DNA of 44,480 bases from NCBI RefSeq assembly GCF_021502585.1, contig NZ_JAKFGM010000004.1:1-44480 (forward strand), given 5' to 3'. Every line of letters starts with the position of its first letter. The first letter of the stretch is position 1. The notes below the pieces were generated by a model. The model ran no database searches. It saw only the letters and a list, made by a program, of their open reading frames with translations, and was not told the DNA's origin. The position numbers and the translations under genes are program-made. This document shows positions 29,028-37,556 of the stretch, piece by piece. The stretch is from Sphingomonas cremea (GTDB taxonomy: Bacteria; Pseudomonadota; Alphaproteobacteria; Sphingomonadales; Sphingomonadaceae).

Positions 29028-30251
29028 TCACCCGATCAGTCGAAGATAGTTTTGGACTACTTCAGTTAGGGTTGCTGACCATGTGAAAGCTGCCGCCGAT
29101 GCGGCAGCAGCCGCGCCGAGTTGCACCCGCCTCCGCGCGTTATGCACAAGGTCGCCTAACGCATCGACATATCCGGCCACGTCATGGGGCCGCACCAGCA
29201 CGCCATTGTCGTTGTGGGAAATCAGTGCCTGCGCGCTCGGCACATCAGCACTAATGACCGCCAGGCCTGCGGCCATGGCCTCCAGGTTGACGTTGCCGAA
29301 GGCCTCTGTCGTGCTCGGGTTGATCAGCACGTCGGCGCTGGCGATGGCCACGGACAGGTCCGGGCCCGAAAGATGGCCGAGGAAACGCGCACCGCCAGGC
29401 AGCTGCCGCGCAAACTCGACCTTGGCGGGTCCGTCGCCGACGATCATCGGACGCACCCTCAGGCCCGCCTCGTTGGCCTGTGCAATCATCGACGAAAATT
29501 CGGCGATTCCTTTCTCTCGGACGAGCCTGCCGAAAAACAGTGGGACGATGTCCGCATCATCCCAGCCTTGTGACCGCCGCCACTCAAGATTGCGAAATGT
29601 CGGATGGAATCGCTGCCGGTCGACGCCGCGCGACCAGACCGCAATGCGATTATCCATGTTCCAGGATCGAAGCTCTTCCAGGATCTGGGAATTGGGGACC
29701 AGCACCAGGTCAGATCGGGCGTAAAAGGTCCGGAGATATCGCTCCGCCCAAGGCCGGAAGGCGCGCAGCCCGTAATATTCGAAATAGGTCTCGAACCTTG
29801 TGTGGAGGCTGGTTACGAGTGGGCACCCGAGTTCCCGCGCAAGCTGCTGGGCCTGATATCCCTGCGGATCCGGCGCAGATACGTGGATATTGGTCGGTGC
29901 AAATCGGCGGACGTCCGCCTTGGTGCGCTCATCGAGCCCTAGCGTCAGGCGGTACTCGCTTCGCCCCGGCAGAGCCACGGAACGCACCGAAACCAGTTCC
30001 CCCGCCGGCTCGAACGCCGGTTCGGGGACAGTGGGCGAATAGACCCGGACCTGTGCGCCTTCCTGCAGAAGGTAGGATACGAGATGGTTGAGCGCATTGT
30101 TCGCACCGTCGCGCACGCAATTATAATTGCCGCAAAAGAGCGCGATTCGAAGGTCTCGCGCGCTGGTGCCTGACGCGGGCAGAAAATCCTCGTCGCATTC
30201 CGACTCCGCCGCCGCATGTGGAACAGCAGTCGGAAGACCCAAATCACTCAT
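29028..30251 (-). CDS. GT4 glycosyltransferase (alpha-mannosyl/SQD2-like), paralogue A
   Basis: A 407-residue retaining glycosyltransferase of the GT4 (GT-B fold) type. The N-terminal half has RIALFCGNYNCVRDGANNALN near 47-67 and SLHTRFETYFEYYG near 135-148. The C-terminal half has VWSRGVDRQRFHP, FFGRLVREKGI, IVGDGPAKVEF and the donor-binding EX7E-like STTEAFGNVNLEAMA near 320-334. These match enzymes that add mannose or similar sugars to glycolipids. ATG 30251 begins a Glu/Asp-rich 40-residue extension before the conserved part. A second, clearly related gene lies at 41768-42922. No polysaccharide cluster surrounds it, which favours glycolipid synthesis. Confidence 0.87.
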   Translation of the reverse strand: MSDLGLPTAVPHAAAESECDEDFLPASGTSARDLRIALFCGNYNCVRDGANNALNHLVSYLLQEGAQVRVYSPTVPEPAFEPAGELVSVRSVALPGRSEYRLTLGLDERTKADVRRFAPTNIHVSAPDPQGYQAQQLARELGCPLVTSLHTRFETYFEYYGLRAFRPWAERYLRTFYARSDLVLVPNSQILEELRSWNMDNRIAVWSRGVDRQRFHPTFRNLEWRRSQGWDDADIVPLFFGRLVREKGIAEFSSMIAQANEAGLRVRPMIVGDGPAKVEFARQLPGGARFLGHLSGPDLSVAIASADVLINPSTTEAFGNVNLEAMAAGLAVISADVPSAQALISHNDNGVLVRPHDVAGYVDALGDLVHNARRRVQLGAAAAASAAAFTWSATLTEVVQNYLRLIG

Positions 30252-30374
30252 CGCTCGTGATCCGCTCAATCGTTTCAGGCCTGTATCGTCCGCGGCGTCG
30301 CTGCTCCGCCCCGCCTGTCTGTACGATGAACGCGGACTTCGCGACCATGAATGTCGCGGTCCCTTAAACAAGTA

Positions 30375-30402
30375 AACCCCGGAGACCGAAGTCTCCGGGG
30401 TT
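30375..30402 (-). terminator. Perfect 12-bp cUUCGg hairpin in a 328-base gap
   Basis: On the minus strand AACCCCGGAGAC-TTCG-GTCTCCGGGGTT forms a perfect 12-bp stem closed by the very stable C(UUCG)G tetraloop, then the T-rich TACTTGTTT. It looks like an intrinsic terminator of a minus-strand transcript. No minus-strand gene lies directly upstream, so a small RNA of about 100 bases (from about 30500 to 30370) is possible. The rest of the gap (30252-30579) has an A-run at 30477-30484 on that strand and a 9-base direct repeat GGTTCCATG at 30399 and 30460, but no gene. Confidence 0.55.
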
Positions 30403-30579
30403 CCATGATTCGCATCCGAAGATTTGAACCACGTGAACAGAACGGTCCGACAGCGGTGCGGTTCCATGCTTCCCAAATTTTTTTGAGATTACCCTCGCCA
30501 GCTCTCACTCGGCGTGGCGACTGCGCGCTCTATCAAGCCCCCGGCTTGGCGGCTGCGCTCGGTTCTGCTTGATGGTCCT

Positions 30580-33500
30580 GTGGAGCACAGCTGGACCTTT
30601 GCGATCGATCGCGGCGGGACGTTCACCGACATTGTCGCGAACTGTTCCGATGGACGTCAGCGGGTCGGAAAGCTGCTGTCCGAGAACCCTGGTCAATATG
30701 GAGATGCCGCCCTGGAGGGCATCCGCCGTATCCTGGCGGAGGAAGAGGGCGCGCTAGGCGAAGTTCGCATGGGCACGACCGTCGCTACTAACGCGCTTCT
30801 CGAGCGTAAGGGCGAGCGGCTGGCACTGGCAATCACGCAAGGGTTCGGCGACGCGCTCAGGATCGGATATCAGGCGCGACCCGAGATCTTCGCGCGGCAC
30901 ATAATTCTGCCGACCATGCTTTATGAAGCAGTCGCCGAGATTAATGAACGGATCGGATCGGATGGATCGATCGTGCGGCCACTCGACGAGGATCAGGCGC
31001 GCGGCGAATTCAAGCGGCTTCGCAGCGAGGGATATGACGCGCTAGCCATCGTGCTGATGCACGGCTGGCGCTTCACCGGACATGAAAGCCGCCTGGCCGA
31101 AATGGCCCAGGCACTCGGCTTTGCGCAAGTGTCGGTCAGCCATGAGGTTGCGCCACTGATCAAGCTTATTGGGCGTGGCGACACCACCGTCGTCGACGCC
31201 TACCTCTCTCCGATATTGCGCCGCTATGTCGACCGGGTCGCGGGCGGGCTGGGGAGTGCAAGACTGCAATTCATGCAGTCGAACGGCGGATTGACCGACG
31301 CGCGCGCCTTTCGCGGCAAGGATGCGGTGCTGTCTGGGCCGGCCGGCGGGGTGGTCGGGATGGTCGCGGCCAGCGCACCGCACGGTACGGATCGCCTGAT
31401 CGGTTTCGACATGGGCGGCACTTCGACCGACGTGTCGCACTATGCCGGCCGCTACGAACTGGGCGACGAGAACCAAATCGCCGGGGTCCGCATCCGCGCG
31501 CCGATGATGCAGGTTCACACCATTGCCGCGGGCGGGGGTTCGATCTGCCGGTTCGACGGAATGCGCTTTCGTGTCGGCCCGGAATCGGCCGGCGCACGGC
31601 CAGGCCCGGCCTGCTATCGTGGCGGGGGACCGCTAACTGTCACTGACTGCAACCTTTTTCTAGGCCGGATTAGCGCCGAACATTTCCCGGCGGTATTCGG
31701 CCCTGGCGGCGATCAGGCCCTTGATCCCGATGCATCGCGAGACCGCCTTCAAGAAGTTGCGGCAACACTTGGTGGCTCCAAAAGTCTGGAGGAAATCGCG
31801 GAGGGCTTCCTCGCCATAGCCGTCGACAACATGGCCGCCGCCATACGCAAAATCTCGATCGCGCGGGGACATGACGTAACCCGCTACACACTCGCCTGCT
31901 TCGGCGGGGCCGGCGGCCAGCACGCATGTCGCGTGGCCGACGCGCTGGGCATGGAGCGCATACTGATCCACCCGCTGGCCGGCGTACTCTCCGCCTTTGG
32001 CATTGGTCTCGCCGACGTAAAATCGATCCGTGAGACGAGTTGGCTGAGACCGCTTGGCGATGATTTCTCGCATTGTGTTCAAGCGCTGGAGAACGCTGCG
32101 CGGAGCAACCTCTTCGATCAGGGCTTCCCGGCAGAGCAAATCCGGTTCGAACGCCGCGCAAAGTTGAGAACGCCGGGCAGCGATACGACGATCGAGATCG
32201 AAATCGAAGGCCGGGACGAAATGAGATCGGCCTTCGACGCACTCCATCGCAAACGCTTCGGCTATGTCGAGGATGTTGAGCCGGTCGTCGATTCACTTAC
32301 CGTCGAGGCGATTGGCTTCGCGCCGCATCGGCCGGTTGCGCCGGTTGCCGATACCTCGGCGAGCGGAATTATAGTTGGCCCCTCAGTGATCAACGAGCAA
32401 GGCTCGACCACGGTCGTCGACCCCGGCTGGCAAGCAGAACGGGCGCGCGACGGGACCTTGATTCTGACGCGTGCGATCCCGATCGAACGCGTTCATGCCA
32501 TTGGCACCGAGGTCGATCCGGTCCGGCTCGAGATTTTCAACAACCTGTTCATGGCCATCGCCGAGGAAATGGGTGTGGCGCTCCAATCGACCGCCACTTC
32601 TGTCAACATCAAGGAGCGTCTCGACTTCTCATGCGCCCTGTTTGATAAGTCGGGAGCGTTGATCGCCAATGCCCCGCACATCCCCGTTCACCTCGGCTCG
32701 ATGGGCGAAAGCATCCGGACAATTATCGACACTCGCGGCGGCGGGCGGGACGGTCGCGGTATTCGGCGTGGCGACGCCTATGTGCTCAATGATCCCTATC
32801 GCGGCGGCACTCACCTCCCCGATATCACGGTGATCGTGCCGGTATTCTACGGTGACGAGGTCGATCCGAGCGCATTCGTCGCGGCACGCGGCCATCATGC
32901 CGACATCGGCGGAATCGCGCCGGGATCCATGCCGCCCGAAAGCCGTACAATCGACCAGGAAGGCGTGCTGATCGACAATCAGCCGCTGGTCGACGAAGGG
33001 CATTTCCGTGAAGTCGAAATTCGCGAGCTCCTGGCCGGCGGTCCCTTTCCGGCACGCAACCCTGACCGAAATATCTCCGACCTTCGCGCCCAGCTTGCAG
33101 CCTGTATACGCGGCGCGGAAGCGCTGAGAGAAACTGGGCGCGACTACGGGCCTGAGGTGGTCGCGGCCTACATGAACCACGTCCTCGCCAACGCCGAGGA
33201 GTCGGTGCGGCGCCTGCTCGGCCGGCTCGACGACGGCGAGTTCAGCTACGAGATGGACAATGGTGCTCTTGTGAGCGTCTCGATCCGCATCGACAAGGAG
33301 ACGCGATCGGCGACGTTCGATTTCACCGGCACCAGCGCCCAGCTCGAAGACAATTTCAACGCGCCCTATTCGATCGTTCGCGCTGCTTCGCTTTATGTTG
33401 TGCGCACCCTGATCGACGACGTGATTCCCATGAACGACGGCTGCTTGCGGCCCATCAAATTGGTCGTACCCGACAGATCGATGCTCAAGCCCGCCTATCC

Positions 33501-34062
33501 GGCGGCGGTCGTCGCCGGCAATGTCGAGACCAGCCAGGTGGTGACCGACGTCTTGTTCGCCGCGACCGGGCGGCTAGCGCCCAGCCAGGGAACAATGAAC
33601 AACTTCACCTTCGGCAACGAGCGGTACCAATATTATGAAACGATTGCCGGCGGATCAGGCGCCGGGCCGGACCATGACGGGACAACCGCGGTACAGACGC
33701 ATATGACCAACAGCCGGCTGACCGATCCCGAGATACTCGAAGCCCGCCTGCCAGTCCGGCTGGAGGAATTTGCGATCCGCCACGGCTCGGGCGGGAAGGG
33801 CCGGCATCATGGAGGGGACGGGGTTGTTCGTAGCGTGACCTTCCTGGAGCCGATGCGCGCCAACATCCTTGCCAATCGCCGCAAGGTGCCGCCGCGCGGC
33901 CTCAATGGTGGTGGGGATGCCATGCCTGGTCGCAACTGGGTCGAGCGCACCGATGGCTCGGTCGAAATGCTAAGCGCCACTGCTTCCGCGGAAATGGGAA
34001 TCGGCGACCGCTTCGTTATCGAGACACCGGGCGGTGGCGGGTTCGGCGGGGAAGGGGCATGA
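30580..34062 (+). CDS. ATP-dependent 5-oxoprolinase (HyuA-HyuB fusion)
   Basis: Opens 5-oxoproline (pyroglutamate) to glutamate with ATP, in the cytoplasm. The 1160-residue product fuses a HyuA half (about 1-640) and a HyuB half (about 650-1160), the single-chain OplAH layout. HyuA marks are [12 protein letters not shown] near 7-18, [16 protein letters not shown] near 65-80, [13 protein letters not shown] near 268-280 and [16 protein letters not shown]. HyuB marks are [50 protein letters not shown] and the terminal PGGGGFG. The GTG 30580 start fits the homologous start, but the SD is weak; GTG 30514 would add 22 residues. The TGA overlaps the next ATG. Confidence 0.9.
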
Positions 34063-34733
34063 TCAACTATTGGCCGCTGATCGGAATACTTCTGGTCGTC
34101 GCTGGCTTCGCGCTGAAGCTGAACCCCATGCTGGTCGTGACCGGCTCGGCGATCGTTACCGGCCTCATTGCCGGCATGGACCCGGTCGAAGTCGTCTCGA
34201 CGTTCGGCAAAGCCTTCAACGACAACCGCATTATCGCCATCGTGTGGATCGTCCTTCCGGTAATCGGCCTGCTCGAACGGTTTGGGCTGCAGCAGCGGTC
34301 GGCTGCGGTCATCCGGAGCATGAAGAATGCAACCACCGGACGGCTGCTGATCCTTTACCTGGTCTATCGCCAGATCACCGCCGCTATCGGTCTTCATTCG
34401 ACCGCCGGCCATCCGCAAACGGTCCGCCCCTTGGTGGCACCAATGGCTCTTGCGGCGGCGGAAAAACAGCATGGTGAGTTGACCGAGGACGAAGCGGAAA
34501 AGGTGAAGGCCTACGCCGCGGCAACCGACAATGTCGGCCTGTTCTTCGGCGAGGATATTTTCTTCGCCATCGGATCCATCGTTCTCATCCAGCAGATTCT
34601 TGCGACCTATGGCTACAATCTTGCCCCGCTCCATTTGGCACTTTGGGCGATTCCTAGCGCGATCGTCGCATTCCTGATCCACTCGACCCGGCTGCTGATC
34701 CTCGACCGAAAGCTGGCGAGGCGCGGCGCATGA
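34059..34733 (+). CDS. DUF969 membrane protein, likely permease half
   Basis: 224 residues, an integral inner-membrane protein of about 5-6 helices with the DUF969 pattern: [22 protein letters not shown] at the start, ADNV-type loop [21 protein letters not shown] near 154-170, and the [19 protein letters not shown] loop near 113-131. DUF969 and DUF979 occur as a pair and are known to sit beside 5-oxoprolinase genes, so they are thought to form a transporter for 5-oxoproline or a related acid. It overlaps the oxoprolinase stop and the DUF979 start by 4 bases each. Confidence 0.88.
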
Positions 34734-35683
34734 TTACCCTTCACTGGCTCTATGCCCTTGCCGGTCTGATGTTCGCTGCCTTTGCGATACTCTCGGCGCT
34801 CGACCGCGCCCATTCCAGGCGCTTCGGCAACGCCGCCTTCTGGGGATTGATGGCACTCAGCTTGCTTGGCGGCGATGCGATCGGCGATTTCGGCAACGGA
34901 TTGCTGGTGCTGGGCCTTGCCGGACTCGCAGGGTTCGGTTTCATCGGCCGCAGCCATCCGCCAACTACAAGCGAGGCGGAGCGACAGACCTGGTCGGACC
35001 GGCTTGGCAACAAGCTGTTCCTTCCCGCGCTTATCATTCCGATCACCGCATTGATCGGCACACTCGCTTATAATTACACCGCGCTCGGCAGCTACGGGTG
35101 GGTCGAGCCCAAGCGCGAGACCTATGTCTTCCTGGGTCTGGGCGTATTGTTCGCACTCGGGGCGATCTTTGCATGGTTGCGCCCACCCGCGATCGCCCCG
35201 CTGCAGGAAGGCCGTCGGCTGATCGACGCGATCGGCTGGGCGGCGGTACTGCCCCAGATGCTCGCTTCCCTTGGCGTGCTGTTCGCCGCTGCCGGAGTCG
35301 GCGATGCGATCGGCTCGCTGACGCGGATGGTCATCCCGGAAGGCAGTATCTTCCTTACCGTGGCGGTATTCGGGCTGGGCATGGCGATCTTCACGATGAT
35401 CATGGGCAATGCCTTTGCCGCCTTCCCGGTCATGGCCGCGGCGATCGGCGTGCCGTTGCTCATCCAGGGGTATCACGGCGACCCGGCAGTGGTCGGGGCA
35501 ATCGGGATGCTCGCCGGCTTTTGCGGGACGCTGATGACTCCCATGGCTGCCAACTTCAACCTGGTTCCAGCAGCCTTGCTCGAACTCAAAGATCAATATG
35601 GCGTGATCCGGGTGCAGGTGGCGACGGCGCTCCCGCTGCTGATCGTGAACATCCTCCTGATTTACTGGTTGGCGTTCCGATGA
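34730..35683 (+). CDS. DUF979 membrane protein, likely permease half
   Basis: 317 residues with about nine hydrophobic helices and the DUF979 pattern: HWLYALAGLMFAAFAILSALDR at the start, GNKLFLPALIIPI near 87-99, VLPQMLASLGVLFAAAGVG near 181-199, AIFTMIMGNAFAAFPVMAAAIGVPL near 221-245 and GTLMTPMAANFNLVPAALLEL near 270-290. It is the partner of DUF969. The two look like halves of one transporter. It is coupled on both sides by ATGA overlaps, so both halves and the following DUF2891 protein would be made in step. Confidence 0.9.
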   Translation: MITLHWLYALAGLMFAAFAILSALDRAHSRRFGNAAFWGLMALSLLGGDAIGDFGNGLLVLGLAGLAGFGFIGRSHPPTTSEAERQTWSDRLGNKLFLPALIIPITALIGTLAYNYTALGSYGWVEPKRETYVFLGLGVLFALGAIFAWLRPPAIAPLQEGRRLIDAIGWAAVLPQMLASLGVLFAAAGVGDAIGSLTRMVIPEGSIFLTVAVFGLGMAIFTMIMGNAFAAFPVMAAAIGVPLLIQGYHGDPAVVGAIGMLAGFCGTLMTPMAANFNLVPAALLELKDQYGVIRVQVATALPLLIVNILLIYWLAFR

Positions 35684-36672
35684 AGCTCGAGCCCGATCTC
35701 GGCACCCGTTTCGCCCGCATCGCGATGGGTCATGTAAGGCGCCCCTATCCCTATAAACTCGACCATGTGCTGCTCGGCGACGAGGACGCGTGTCCACCGC
35801 AAGAACTTCATCCGATCTTCTTCGGCAGCTTCGACTGGCACAGCTGCGTCCATGGCTGGTGGACCCTGCTCACCTTGCGGCGGCTATTCCCCGATAATCC
35901 GGAGGCGGTTGCCATCGCTGAATTGGCCGAAGCCAGCTTCACGCTGGACAAGGTGGCGGTCGAGCTCGCCTATCTCGACCGGCCGCTGTCAGCGGGATTC
36001 GAACGGCCCTACGGCTGGGGTTGGCTGCTCTACCTCCACCTCGAGGCATCACGACACCCGGACCGCGGCTGGGCAAGGGAGCTGGAACCGCTCGCCCGTG
36101 CCTTTGCCGGGCGGCTGCGCACCTATCTCGCCAAGCTTACCTATCCGATCCGCGTCGGCACCCATTTCAACACGGCCTTTGCGCTGATCCTTGCACTGGA
36201 TTGGGCCGAACGCTTTGAGCCGACACTCGGTGAACCGATCCGTGAATGGGCGAAGGCGTCATTCGCCAATGATCGCGACTGCCAGGCGTGGGAGCCGGGC
36301 GGCGATGAGTTCCTCTCGCCGGCGCTGATCGAAGCGCTGTGCATGGCGCGGGTGTTGCCGGCAGAAGAGTTTGCCAACTGGTTCGCGGCCTTCCTGCCGC
36401 GAGTGGCCAGCCGCGAGCCCAAAACGCTTTTCGTGCCCGCGACCGTCAGCGACCACAGCGACGGAAAGATTGCGCACCTCGACGGCCTGAACCTCAGTCG
36501 GGCCTGGTGCTGGGCCACGATTGCTCCGTTGCTGCCGGCAGCCGAGCGAAAAGCGGCCGAAGCGTCGGCGGCGGAGCATCTTGTAGCCTCGATGCCGCAC
36601 GTAGCTGGCGACTATATGGGCGAGCATTGGCTGGCGAGTTTTGCGCTGCTGGCGTTGATGAAGGGTTCTTGA
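35680..36672 (+). CDS. DUF2891 family protein
   Basis: 330 residues, soluble, helix-rich, without signal peptide. The DUF2891 pattern is visible: HPIFFGSFDWHSCVHGWWTL near 44-63, YGWGWLLYLHLE near 111-122, IRVGTHFNTAFAL near 156-168, ACQAWEPGGDEFLSPALIEA-type text near 200-220, HLDGLNLSRAWCW near 267-279 and HVAGDYMGEHWLASFALLAL at the end. Conserved His, Asp, Trp and Cys residues and an all-helical shape suggest an enzyme of the (alpha/alpha)6 kind, but the activity is not known. The ATG overlaps the DUF979 stop, making it the last gene of the 5-oxoproline operon. Confidence 0.87.
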   Translation: MKLEPDLGTRFARIAMGHVRRPYPYKLDHVLLGDEDACPPQELHPIFFGSFDWHSCVHGWWTLLTLRRLFPDNPEAVAIAELAEASFTLDKVAVELAYLDRPLSAGFERPYGWGWLLYLHLEASRHPDRGWARELEPLARAFAGRLRTYLAKLTYPIRVGTHFNTAFALILALDWAERFEPTLGEPIREWAKASFANDRDCQAWEPGGDEFLSPALIEALCMARVLPAEEFANWFAAFLPRVASREPKTLFVPATVSDHSDGKIAHLDGLNLSRAWCWATIAPLLPAAERKAAEASAAEHLVASMPHVAGDYMGEHWLASFALLALMKGS

Positions 36673-36714
36673 GCCGAGGCCTTGGCAATCGCCCGGATAG
36701 CCGGGGGGCGAGGC

Positions 36715-36790
36715 TGGTGCCGGATGCAGGATTTGAACCCGCGACCTTCGGTTTACAAAACCGCTGCTCTACCAACTGAGCTAATCCGGC
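36715..36790 (-). tRNA. tRNA-Thr (anticodon UGU)
   Basis: 76 bases on the minus strand with encoded CCA. The acceptor stem GCCGGAT pairs with ATCCGGC. The D arm is GCTCAGTTGGTAGAGC, the anticodon loop TTTGTAA gives UGU at 36755-36757 (reads ACA/Thr), and the T arm is GCGGG-TTCAAAT-CCTGC. It lies between the end of the 5-oxoproline operon (plus) and the VIT gene (minus). Standard integration sites often use tRNA 3' ends, but I see no phage or island next to it. Confidence 0.95.
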
Positions 36791-36836
36791 CCGGCGGCCC
36801 CTTTGCGTCAGACGATGCCGAACGTCTAGCCCGGAA

Positions 36837-37556
36837 TTAAACCGCGGTGCCGACGAGCTTTCCAATCCCTGCGGTCAGGGCCATTGCCAGTGCCCCCCAA
36901 AAAGCGACCCGCGCCGTGGCCTTGCCCACGGGCGCTCCGCCCGCCTTGGCGCCCAGGGCACCCAGCAGCGCCAAGAAAAGCAAAGAACCTGCCGAGACCG
37001 AGAGAATGGTGGCGCGACCGACCGGCGCGAGCCAGGCAATTGTGAGCGGCAACAGCGCGCCCGCGGTGAAGGTCACCGCCGATGTGAGTGCTGCCTGGAT
37101 CGGCCTGGCGGTAGTGATGTGCGTGATGCTGAGCTCGTCGCGCGCGTGGGCCGCAAGCGCATCTCCGGCCATTAGCTGTGCTGCGACCTCATTTGCGGTC
37201 TCGGCCTTTAATCCACGCTTCTGATATATTGCCGCGAGCTCGCGCTGCTCGAACTCCGGATCGGACTTTAGCTCCGCTCGTTCGCGCTCAAGATCCGCAT
37301 TCTCCGTGTCCGCCTGGGAACTGACCGAGACATACTCTCCAGCCGCCATGGACATTGCGCCGGCGACAAGGCCCGCCGCACCGGCAAGAAGCACTTCGCT
37401 TCGTCCTGAAGCAGCCGCCGCGATGCCGACGATCAGGCTGGCCGTCGATACGATCCCATCATTGGCTCCAAGCACCGCTGCCCGAAGCCAGCCGATGCGC
37501 GCCACCTGATGTCGTTCGGGGTGAGTGTGCGGGAGGACCATGTCGGCCTTCACCAT
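36837..37556 (-). CDS. VIT1/CCC1-family metal transporter
   Basis: 239 residues of the VIT family, which moves Fe2+ or Mn2+ across membranes. Marks are the N-terminal WLRAAVLGANDGIVSTASLIVG near 23-44, AGAMSMAAGEYVSVSSQADTENADLERERAEL near 65-96 with the metal-binding Glu residues, and a helical cytoplasmic part (about 90-150), then three C-terminal helices. The fold with five helices fits family length. It begins 3 bases after the stop of the upstream minus-strand gene at 37560, so it is the last gene of a run that starts with the TM-helix channel (or rarA). Confidence 0.9.
   Translation of the reverse strand: MVKADMVLPHTHPERHQVARIGWLRAAVLGANDGIVSTASLIVGIAAAASGRSEVLLAGAAGLVAGAMSMAAGEYVSVSSQADTENADLERERAELKSDPEFEQRELAAIYQKRGLKAETANEVAAQLMAGDALAAHARDELSITHITTARPIQAALTSAVTFTAGALLPLTIAWLAPVGRATILSVSAGSLLFLALLGALGAKAGGAPVGKATARVAFWGALAMALTAGIGKLVGTAV

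Follow-up and report, generated by a model that had tools for sequence, protein, structure and literature searches.

DUF2891 of a predicted 5-oxoproline operon in Sphingomonas cremea occupies the position held by pcp in related operons

Organization of the four-gene operon

The window analyzed in this work is a 44,480-nucleotide stretch of Sphingomonas cremea DNA (contig NZ_JAKFGM010000004.1, positions 1 to 44,480), which carries on its forward strand four overlapping genes with a predicted role in the use of 5-oxoproline. These genes encode a HyuA-HyuB fusion of the 5-oxoprolinase (ATP-dependent lactamase) family (30580..34062, GTG start), DUF969 (34059..34733), DUF979 (34730..35683) and DUF2891 (35680..36672). 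A second in-frame GTG, also open, is located at 30514, ahead of the oxoprolinase start. The sequence-only reading described the four genes as coupled by three 4-base ATGA overlaps, and these were read in the sequence at 34059..34062 (oxoprolinase-DUF969), 34730..34733 (DUF969-DUF979) and 35680..35683 (DUF979-DUF2891). All family assignments were far above the Pfam cut-offs, with 173 bits for Hydant_A_N (PF05378), 347 for Hydantoinase_A (PF01968), 636 for Hydantoinase_B (PF02538), 302.7 for DUF969 (PF06149), 395.8 for DUF979 (PF06166) and 415.8 for DUF2891 (PF11199; gathering cut-off 25, profile positions 2-325 of 325). The window genome (G000) has 2.55 Mb and its nearest relatives in the trees were sphingomonads.

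The conservation of this arrangement was determined in the best 80 DUF2891 loci of a genome contig search. All four families were found inside 8 kb in 35 loci, with the oxoprolinase on the opposite strand in three; DUF969-DUF979-DUF2891 occurred without the oxoprolinase in 21, and DUF979-DUF2891 stood at a contig end in 3. The remaining 21 carried DUF2891 without these neighbours, one of them (L049) broken off at a contig end. Among related junctions, where the downstream gene started with ATG, GTG or TTG, the 4-base overlap was present in 59/59 between DUF969 and DUF979, in 34/62 between DUF979 and DUF2891 and in 13/32 between oxoprolinase and DUF969. The gene order in the cassette is not due to chance.

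In the oxoprolinase of the window a single chain carries the three Pfam domains, and the protein was the sole match to the fusion type in its genome at E<=1e-30. Searches of the same genome for PxpA (PF03746) and for pcp, the gene of pyroglutamyl peptidase I (peptidase C15, PF01470), found neither, and the fusion protein is likely to serve as the 5-oxoprolinase of this genome. Its nearest solved chain was 7hk5 (1288 aa, 422 bits), named N-methylhydantoinase, and it fell below the equivalog cut-offs for caprolactamase (344.6 of 1000) and acetophenone carboxylase (153.1 of 1500). The view of DUF969 and DUF979 as a two-part permease tied to 5-oxoproline is already a published proposal: the accessible part of PMC11467057 describes the pair as a proposed 5-oxoproline transporter, resembling an ion transporter superfamily fold divided in two, and gives a high-confidence AlphaFold complex of the C. 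difficile proteins.

DUF2891 and pcp exchange places behind DUF979

The position directly behind DUF979 (the slot) was analyzed in two samples. The first comprised 299 genomes, taken as Pseudomonadota from named relatives in trees, of which 26 had DUF979 above the cut-off. In these 26 the slot held DUF2891 only in 12, pcp only in 12, both in one (G170) and neither in one (G249, whose DUF2891 lies at another site). The second sample was the family of G178, taken as Enterobacteriaceae-like in the same way, with a DUF979 match in 41/119 genomes; G653 was dropped from the count since its match of 26.0 bits in a 0.6 Mb genome was at the cut-off. Among the remaining 40, DUF2891 was adjacent in 16, pcp in 20, neither in 4 and both in none. 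Four of the 16 DUF2891 slots were imperfect, being degraded (G691, G744) or interrupted or split (G668, G747), and one of the four slots with neither gene belonged to a genome with DUF2891 elsewhere (G658). In the wider class of G178, DUF979 was found in 5/369 genomes, one of them new; G335 had DUF979, DUF2891 elsewhere and no pcp. The union of both samples, which shared four genomes, together with G335 gave 63 DUF979 genomes, of which 27 had DUF2891 alone in the slot, 29 had pcp alone, one had both and 6 had neither. This exchange of DUF2891 and pcp in the slot is the new point of our analysis; no proposal that DUF2891 replaces pcp was found in the literature as far as it was accessible to our search.

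Simple Fisher tests gave 3e-5 and 1.5e-7, values that come from related genomes and so are not probabilities of the hypothesis. Exclusion was weaker across whole genomes than in the slot, DUF2891 and pcp being both present somewhere in 7/40 genomes of the family of G178. In the phylum sample a C15 match of any kind was found in 40/299 genomes and a strong one (E below 1e-60) in 18/299, of which 13 had DUF979. None of the 22 genomes that carry a DUF979-DUF2891 locus gave a C15 match, and among the 14 with DUF2891 alone three, all Bradyrhizobium, had a distant one (E 1e-17 to 1e-19). Since few genomes of the phylum have a strong pcp match in any case, the absence of pcp from DUF2891 genomes was not counted as evidence.

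The exchange was also seen behind another type of oxoprolinase. Behind the gene order pxpB-pxpC-pxpA-DUF969-DUF979, G686 has DUF2891, G170 has DUF2891 and then pcp, and a Klebsiella record (L229) has pcp. Operons of this last kind share with the window the permease and the gene order, and their last gene would likewise supply 5-oxoproline, whereas their oxoprolinase (PxpABC) and their last gene (peptidase C15) are unrelated to those of the window. Among the plasmid loci examined, pcp occupied the slot in four Bacillota, two Actinomycetota and one Comamonadaceae and DUF2891 in one Gemmatimonadota locus; neither was in the slot of L227, which had PxpA there instead, or of L231, in which DUF2891 lay about 19 kb away.

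The number of exchanges was estimated from DUF979 trees. A tree of 77 rows, for which every third genome-contig row was kept, gave two changes of the slot label, or one when the six longest rows were removed. In an enlarged tree of 89 rows, with 12 more plasmid rows and a Bacillota outgroup, pcp was basal and DUF2891 fell in two clades; a tree with a single DUF2891 clade had a marginally better score, with a p-AU of 0.65, or of 0.69 once eight long rows were removed. Because the single-clade tree was not rejected, one replacement of pcp by DUF2891 is enough, with G170 as a mixed state. A model of repeated independent replacement was dropped, since the trees gave one or two changes and one clade was not rejected.

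Distribution of DUF2891 relative to the 5-oxoproline pathway

In the phylum sample DUF2891 was present in 27/299 genomes. It shared a genome with DUF979 in 15 of the 299, against 2.3 expected, and was adjacent to it in 13. PxpA or a fusion oxoprolinase scoring at least 500 bits against that of the window was present in 26 of the 27 DUF2891 genomes, G285 being the exception. Among the control genomes DUF2891 was matched in Caulobacter vibrioides only; this species was also one of three controls with a DUF979 match, of which one exceeded the cut-off, and gave no match to pcp or PxpA. As background, 119 genomes, assumed to be those with the handles G000-G118 from which the PxpA count comes, had the fusion at at least 500 bits in 21, PxpA in 28 and one or the other in about 46.

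Besides the 13 DUF2891 genes adjoining DUF979, one adjoined an oxoprolinase alone, one stood beside pxp genes and 12 were away from pathway genes. The sequence-only reading had given DUF2891 a fixed place as the last coupled gene; this holds inside the cassette and fails elsewhere, since only 13 of 27 adjoin DUF979. It had also proposed the neighbour count as a check, with DUF2891 found mostly away from these genes as the contrary outcome, and 12 of 27 comes near to that outcome.

The neighbours of lone DUF2891 genes had no consistent theme and included Rsm22, DNA_pol_A_exo1-HRDC, TetR, MFS, AcnX, S58 peptidase and DJ-1 genes. Two Roseomonas-group loci (L158:6976-8996 and L076:8985-10972) had an S58 (P1) peptidase gene immediately ahead of DUF2891, with a 4-base overlap in L158. 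In a Rhizobium (L094:6871-9572) DUF2891 overlapped an aconitase X gene, whose family we take to be a hydroxyproline dehydratase, and an Rsm22 gene overlapped on the other side. The genes of L160 and L161 were located by six-frame marker matches.

Proposed role of DUF2891

Taken together, the operon looks like a 5-oxoproline scavenging cassette of exchangeable parts. DUF969 and DUF979 would form a two-subunit permease importing 5-oxoproline or small pyroglutamyl compounds, and the fusion protein would hydrolyse 5-oxoproline to glutamate with ATP. DUF2891 would supply 5-oxoproline, most probably freed from pyroglutamyl peptides or a similar conjugate, replacing pyroglutamyl peptidase I, an unrelated protein whose gene is the last of this operon in other genomes. 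Its position in the slot makes release of 5-oxoproline from pyroglutamyl compounds the leading guess for its function, and DUF2891 may be a non-homologous stand-in for pcp. We hold the whole reading, a scavenging operon in which DUF2891 frees 5-oxoproline in place of pcp, only tentatively, although as the best available.

The sequence-only reading had tied DUF2891 to 5-oxoproline, and this tie gains support from the pcp slot, from the oxoprolinases of 26 of 27 DUF2891 genomes and from an operon mutant of C. jejuni. In that organism cj0552-cj0554 encodes the same three families, DUF969-DUF979-DUF2891, and Cj0554 is 43% identical to the window protein; unlike the window, the operon is described without a fused oxoprolinase, and the role of DUF2891 is not separated from that of the permease. 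According to the accessible part of PMC12795558, the cj0552-4 mutant lost growth on 5-oxoproline as sole nitrogen source, in an experiment that its authors call preliminary; C. jejuni was the only species for which a mutant phenotype of this kind was found in print. The suggestion that DUF2891 makes or releases the pathway substrate is likewise strengthened, since the gene holds a slot filled elsewhere by pcp. Nothing was found pointing to a cyclic dipeptide, which had been named as another possible substrate.

DUF2891 is a widespread family with a solved structure, and the slot gives a specific idea to test, namely release of 5-oxoproline from pyroglutamyl compounds. If this were true, the pyroglutamyl peptidases would gain a new fold, and each of the three parts of the pathway (oxoprolinase, transporter and supply enzyme) would exist in unrelated forms that can take one another's place. 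If it were false, the slot exchange would still indicate what DUF2891 should be tested for.

The same slot would also be explained by a DUF2891 that makes 5-oxoproline by cyclising glutamine, N-terminal glutamine or gamma-glutamyl compounds. In the accessible text of PMC12795558 cj0552-4 is among the glutamine-responsive operons of C. jejuni, in agreement with such a reaction, and the mutant is given as having no significant growth phenotype on glutamine, which speaks against it, as does the spontaneous cyclisation by which 5-oxoproline already arises (PMC13274462, in the part available). We consider cyclisation improbable. Few genomes have homologues of the ATP-independent 5-oxoprolinase of Alcaligenes faecalis (10/984, as quoted in PMC13274462), which makes it unlikely that DUF2891 is this enzyme.

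Properties of the DUF2891 protein

The DUF2891 protein of the window is single-domain, lacks a signal-like N-terminal extension, and matched PF11199 alone at E<=0.001, with no match to PF01470. Structure prediction gave a helical toroid with high confidence, in which many of the conserved polar residues are located at or near helix starts. Residues D52, H54, H58, E95, E108 and Y111 were invariant in both DUF2891 alignments, and R109, H162, E205, H266, N271, R274 and H316 were invariant in one and at least 90% conserved in the other. The only solved DUF2891 structures found were 8ieu and 8iev, both of Cj0554, and the literature search found no paper naming either entry. After Cj0554 the nearest folds were GH88 unsaturated glucuronyl hydrolases and AGE sugar enzymes, which differ from DUF2891 in sharing only about 10% identity with it; the profile of one DUF2891 alignment (A1) matched no AGE or GH88 chain by sequence up to E 5. 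Toroid folds are used for many chemistries. To our knowledge the DUF2891 toroid is unrelated to the pyroglutamyl-releasing M1 ectoenzyme.

Two further readings draw on this fold. DUF2891 might be a racemase or epimerase that uses paired histidines in an AGE-like toroid to convert 5-oxo-D-proline, or a related ring, to the L form accepted by the oxoprolinase; we regard this as rather unlikely, if slightly less so than cyclisation. The resemblance to GH88 and AGE sugar enzymes would suggest a DUF2891 that frees 5-oxoproline from, or modifies, a sugar conjugate such as fructosyl-pyroglutamate; no recurring sugar gene was seen in the cassette regions examined, and this reading seems to us as improbable as cyclisation.

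In 7 of the 27 phylum genes (L003, L007, L008, L009, L015, L020 and L026) DUF2891 starts with a signal-peptide-like or lipobox-like stretch, as judged by eye. None of the seven adjoins DUF979. Six group together in a single clade at 98%, and L026 was too divergent to place. The exported DUF2891 of G075 (L138) is followed by an overlapping NRAMP-family transporter gene, PxpA, PxpB and PxpC. With an oxidoreductase gene on the same strand some 80 bases ahead, this DUF2891 gene does not have to open an operon. The genes behind it resemble Corynebacterium pxpTABC, and, in the accessible text of PMC13274462, the NRAMP-family PxpT/YcsG is required for 5-oxoproline use, PxpT in C. glutamicum. That operon and the Bacillus ycs operon are like the window in joining 5-oxoproline uptake to a 5-oxoprolinase and unlike it in using an NRAMP-type transporter and PxpABC. 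The term "DUF2891" is absent from the text of PMC13274462. These data raise the possibility, which we rate below the scavenging reading, that DUF2891 is a new pyroglutamyl-releasing toroid with a cytosolic form coupled to DUF969/DUF979 and an exported clade acting outside the inner membrane, once beside an NRAMP-type 5-oxoproline importer.

Several observations weigh against the view that DUF2891 frees 5-oxoproline in place of pcp. The DUF2891 genes away from pathway genes include 6 of the 7 exported ones, and no NRAMP or pxp genes were found around the other six exported genes, which also argues against a strict link. Genomes G674, G682 and G704, with an empty slot, had neither DUF2891 nor pcp; pcp occurred elsewhere in 6 of the 16 DUF2891-slot genomes of the family of G178, two of them with fragments; and in G170 both genes stand side by side. 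Among the matches listed, most folds other than Cj0554 belonged to sugar enzymes (GH88, AGE, GH76 and others) or to complement C3 domains, and the 50 matches listed in each fold search included no peptidase. Finally, the slot tally represents one or two events, not 63.

The last point also bears on a different explanation, that the exchange is an accident of two operon lineages and the function of DUF2891 is unrelated to 5-oxoproline release. A single swap suffices on the DUF979 tree, and the 12 DUF2891 genes located elsewhere, with AcnX as neighbour in one Rhizobium and S58 peptidase in two Roseomonas-group loci, fit this explanation. It is opposed by the presence of PxpA or the fusion oxoprolinase in nearly all DUF2891 genomes and by a DUF2891 tree of 41 rows (16 hand-picked from other loci, with the incomplete L025 and the RTX-linked L027 left out), on which adjacency to DUF979 required 8 changes in the best case, with a minimum of 3 when judged by starred branches. 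We judge such an accident unlikely, though more plausible than the racemase, cyclisation or sugar-conjugate readings and a little less so than the exported-toroid reading.

Other observations

A possible pcp remnant was seen in G674, where 19 residues directly behind DUF979 match the beginning of pcp very weakly (E 0.22; L211:5971-6027). A GntR-type regulator, a candidate 5-oxoproline sensor like PxpR, is convergent with and directly behind DUF2891 in L217:4363-5139 and L220:9010-9762. An apparently secreted variant, a 957-aa protein of G167 (L150:7009-9882), combines an N-terminal DUF2891-like domain (E 3.5e-21) with RTX calcium-binding repeats. No DUF2891 relative was found in the viral contigs searched. 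In Pontixanthobacter and Allopontixanthobacter the four families are among clusters co-occurring with halotolerance (cluster numbers 113, 115, 116 and 117; PMC10040529, accessible part).

Around the operon, no sigma-70-like promoter was found in 30200-37000, against 1.4 in shuffled sequences, in a test that is weak for this group, and terminator-like sites numbered 6 against 5.8 in shuffles, that is, no excess. A 13-pair stem followed by a T-rich tail lies just upstream of the operon on the minus strand (30374-30403), and a tRNA-Thr gene (anticodon tgt; 36715-36790, minus strand) lies directly behind DUF2891.

The DUF969-DUF979-DUF2891 cassette was also found on a conjugative Klebsiella plasmid (L157, NZ_CP092398.1) near insertion sequence elements, with NRAMP, PxpA, putative hydro-lyase and PxpBC-type genes about 6 kb away. 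Klebsiella accounted for 35 of the 55 plasmid records carrying DUF2891.

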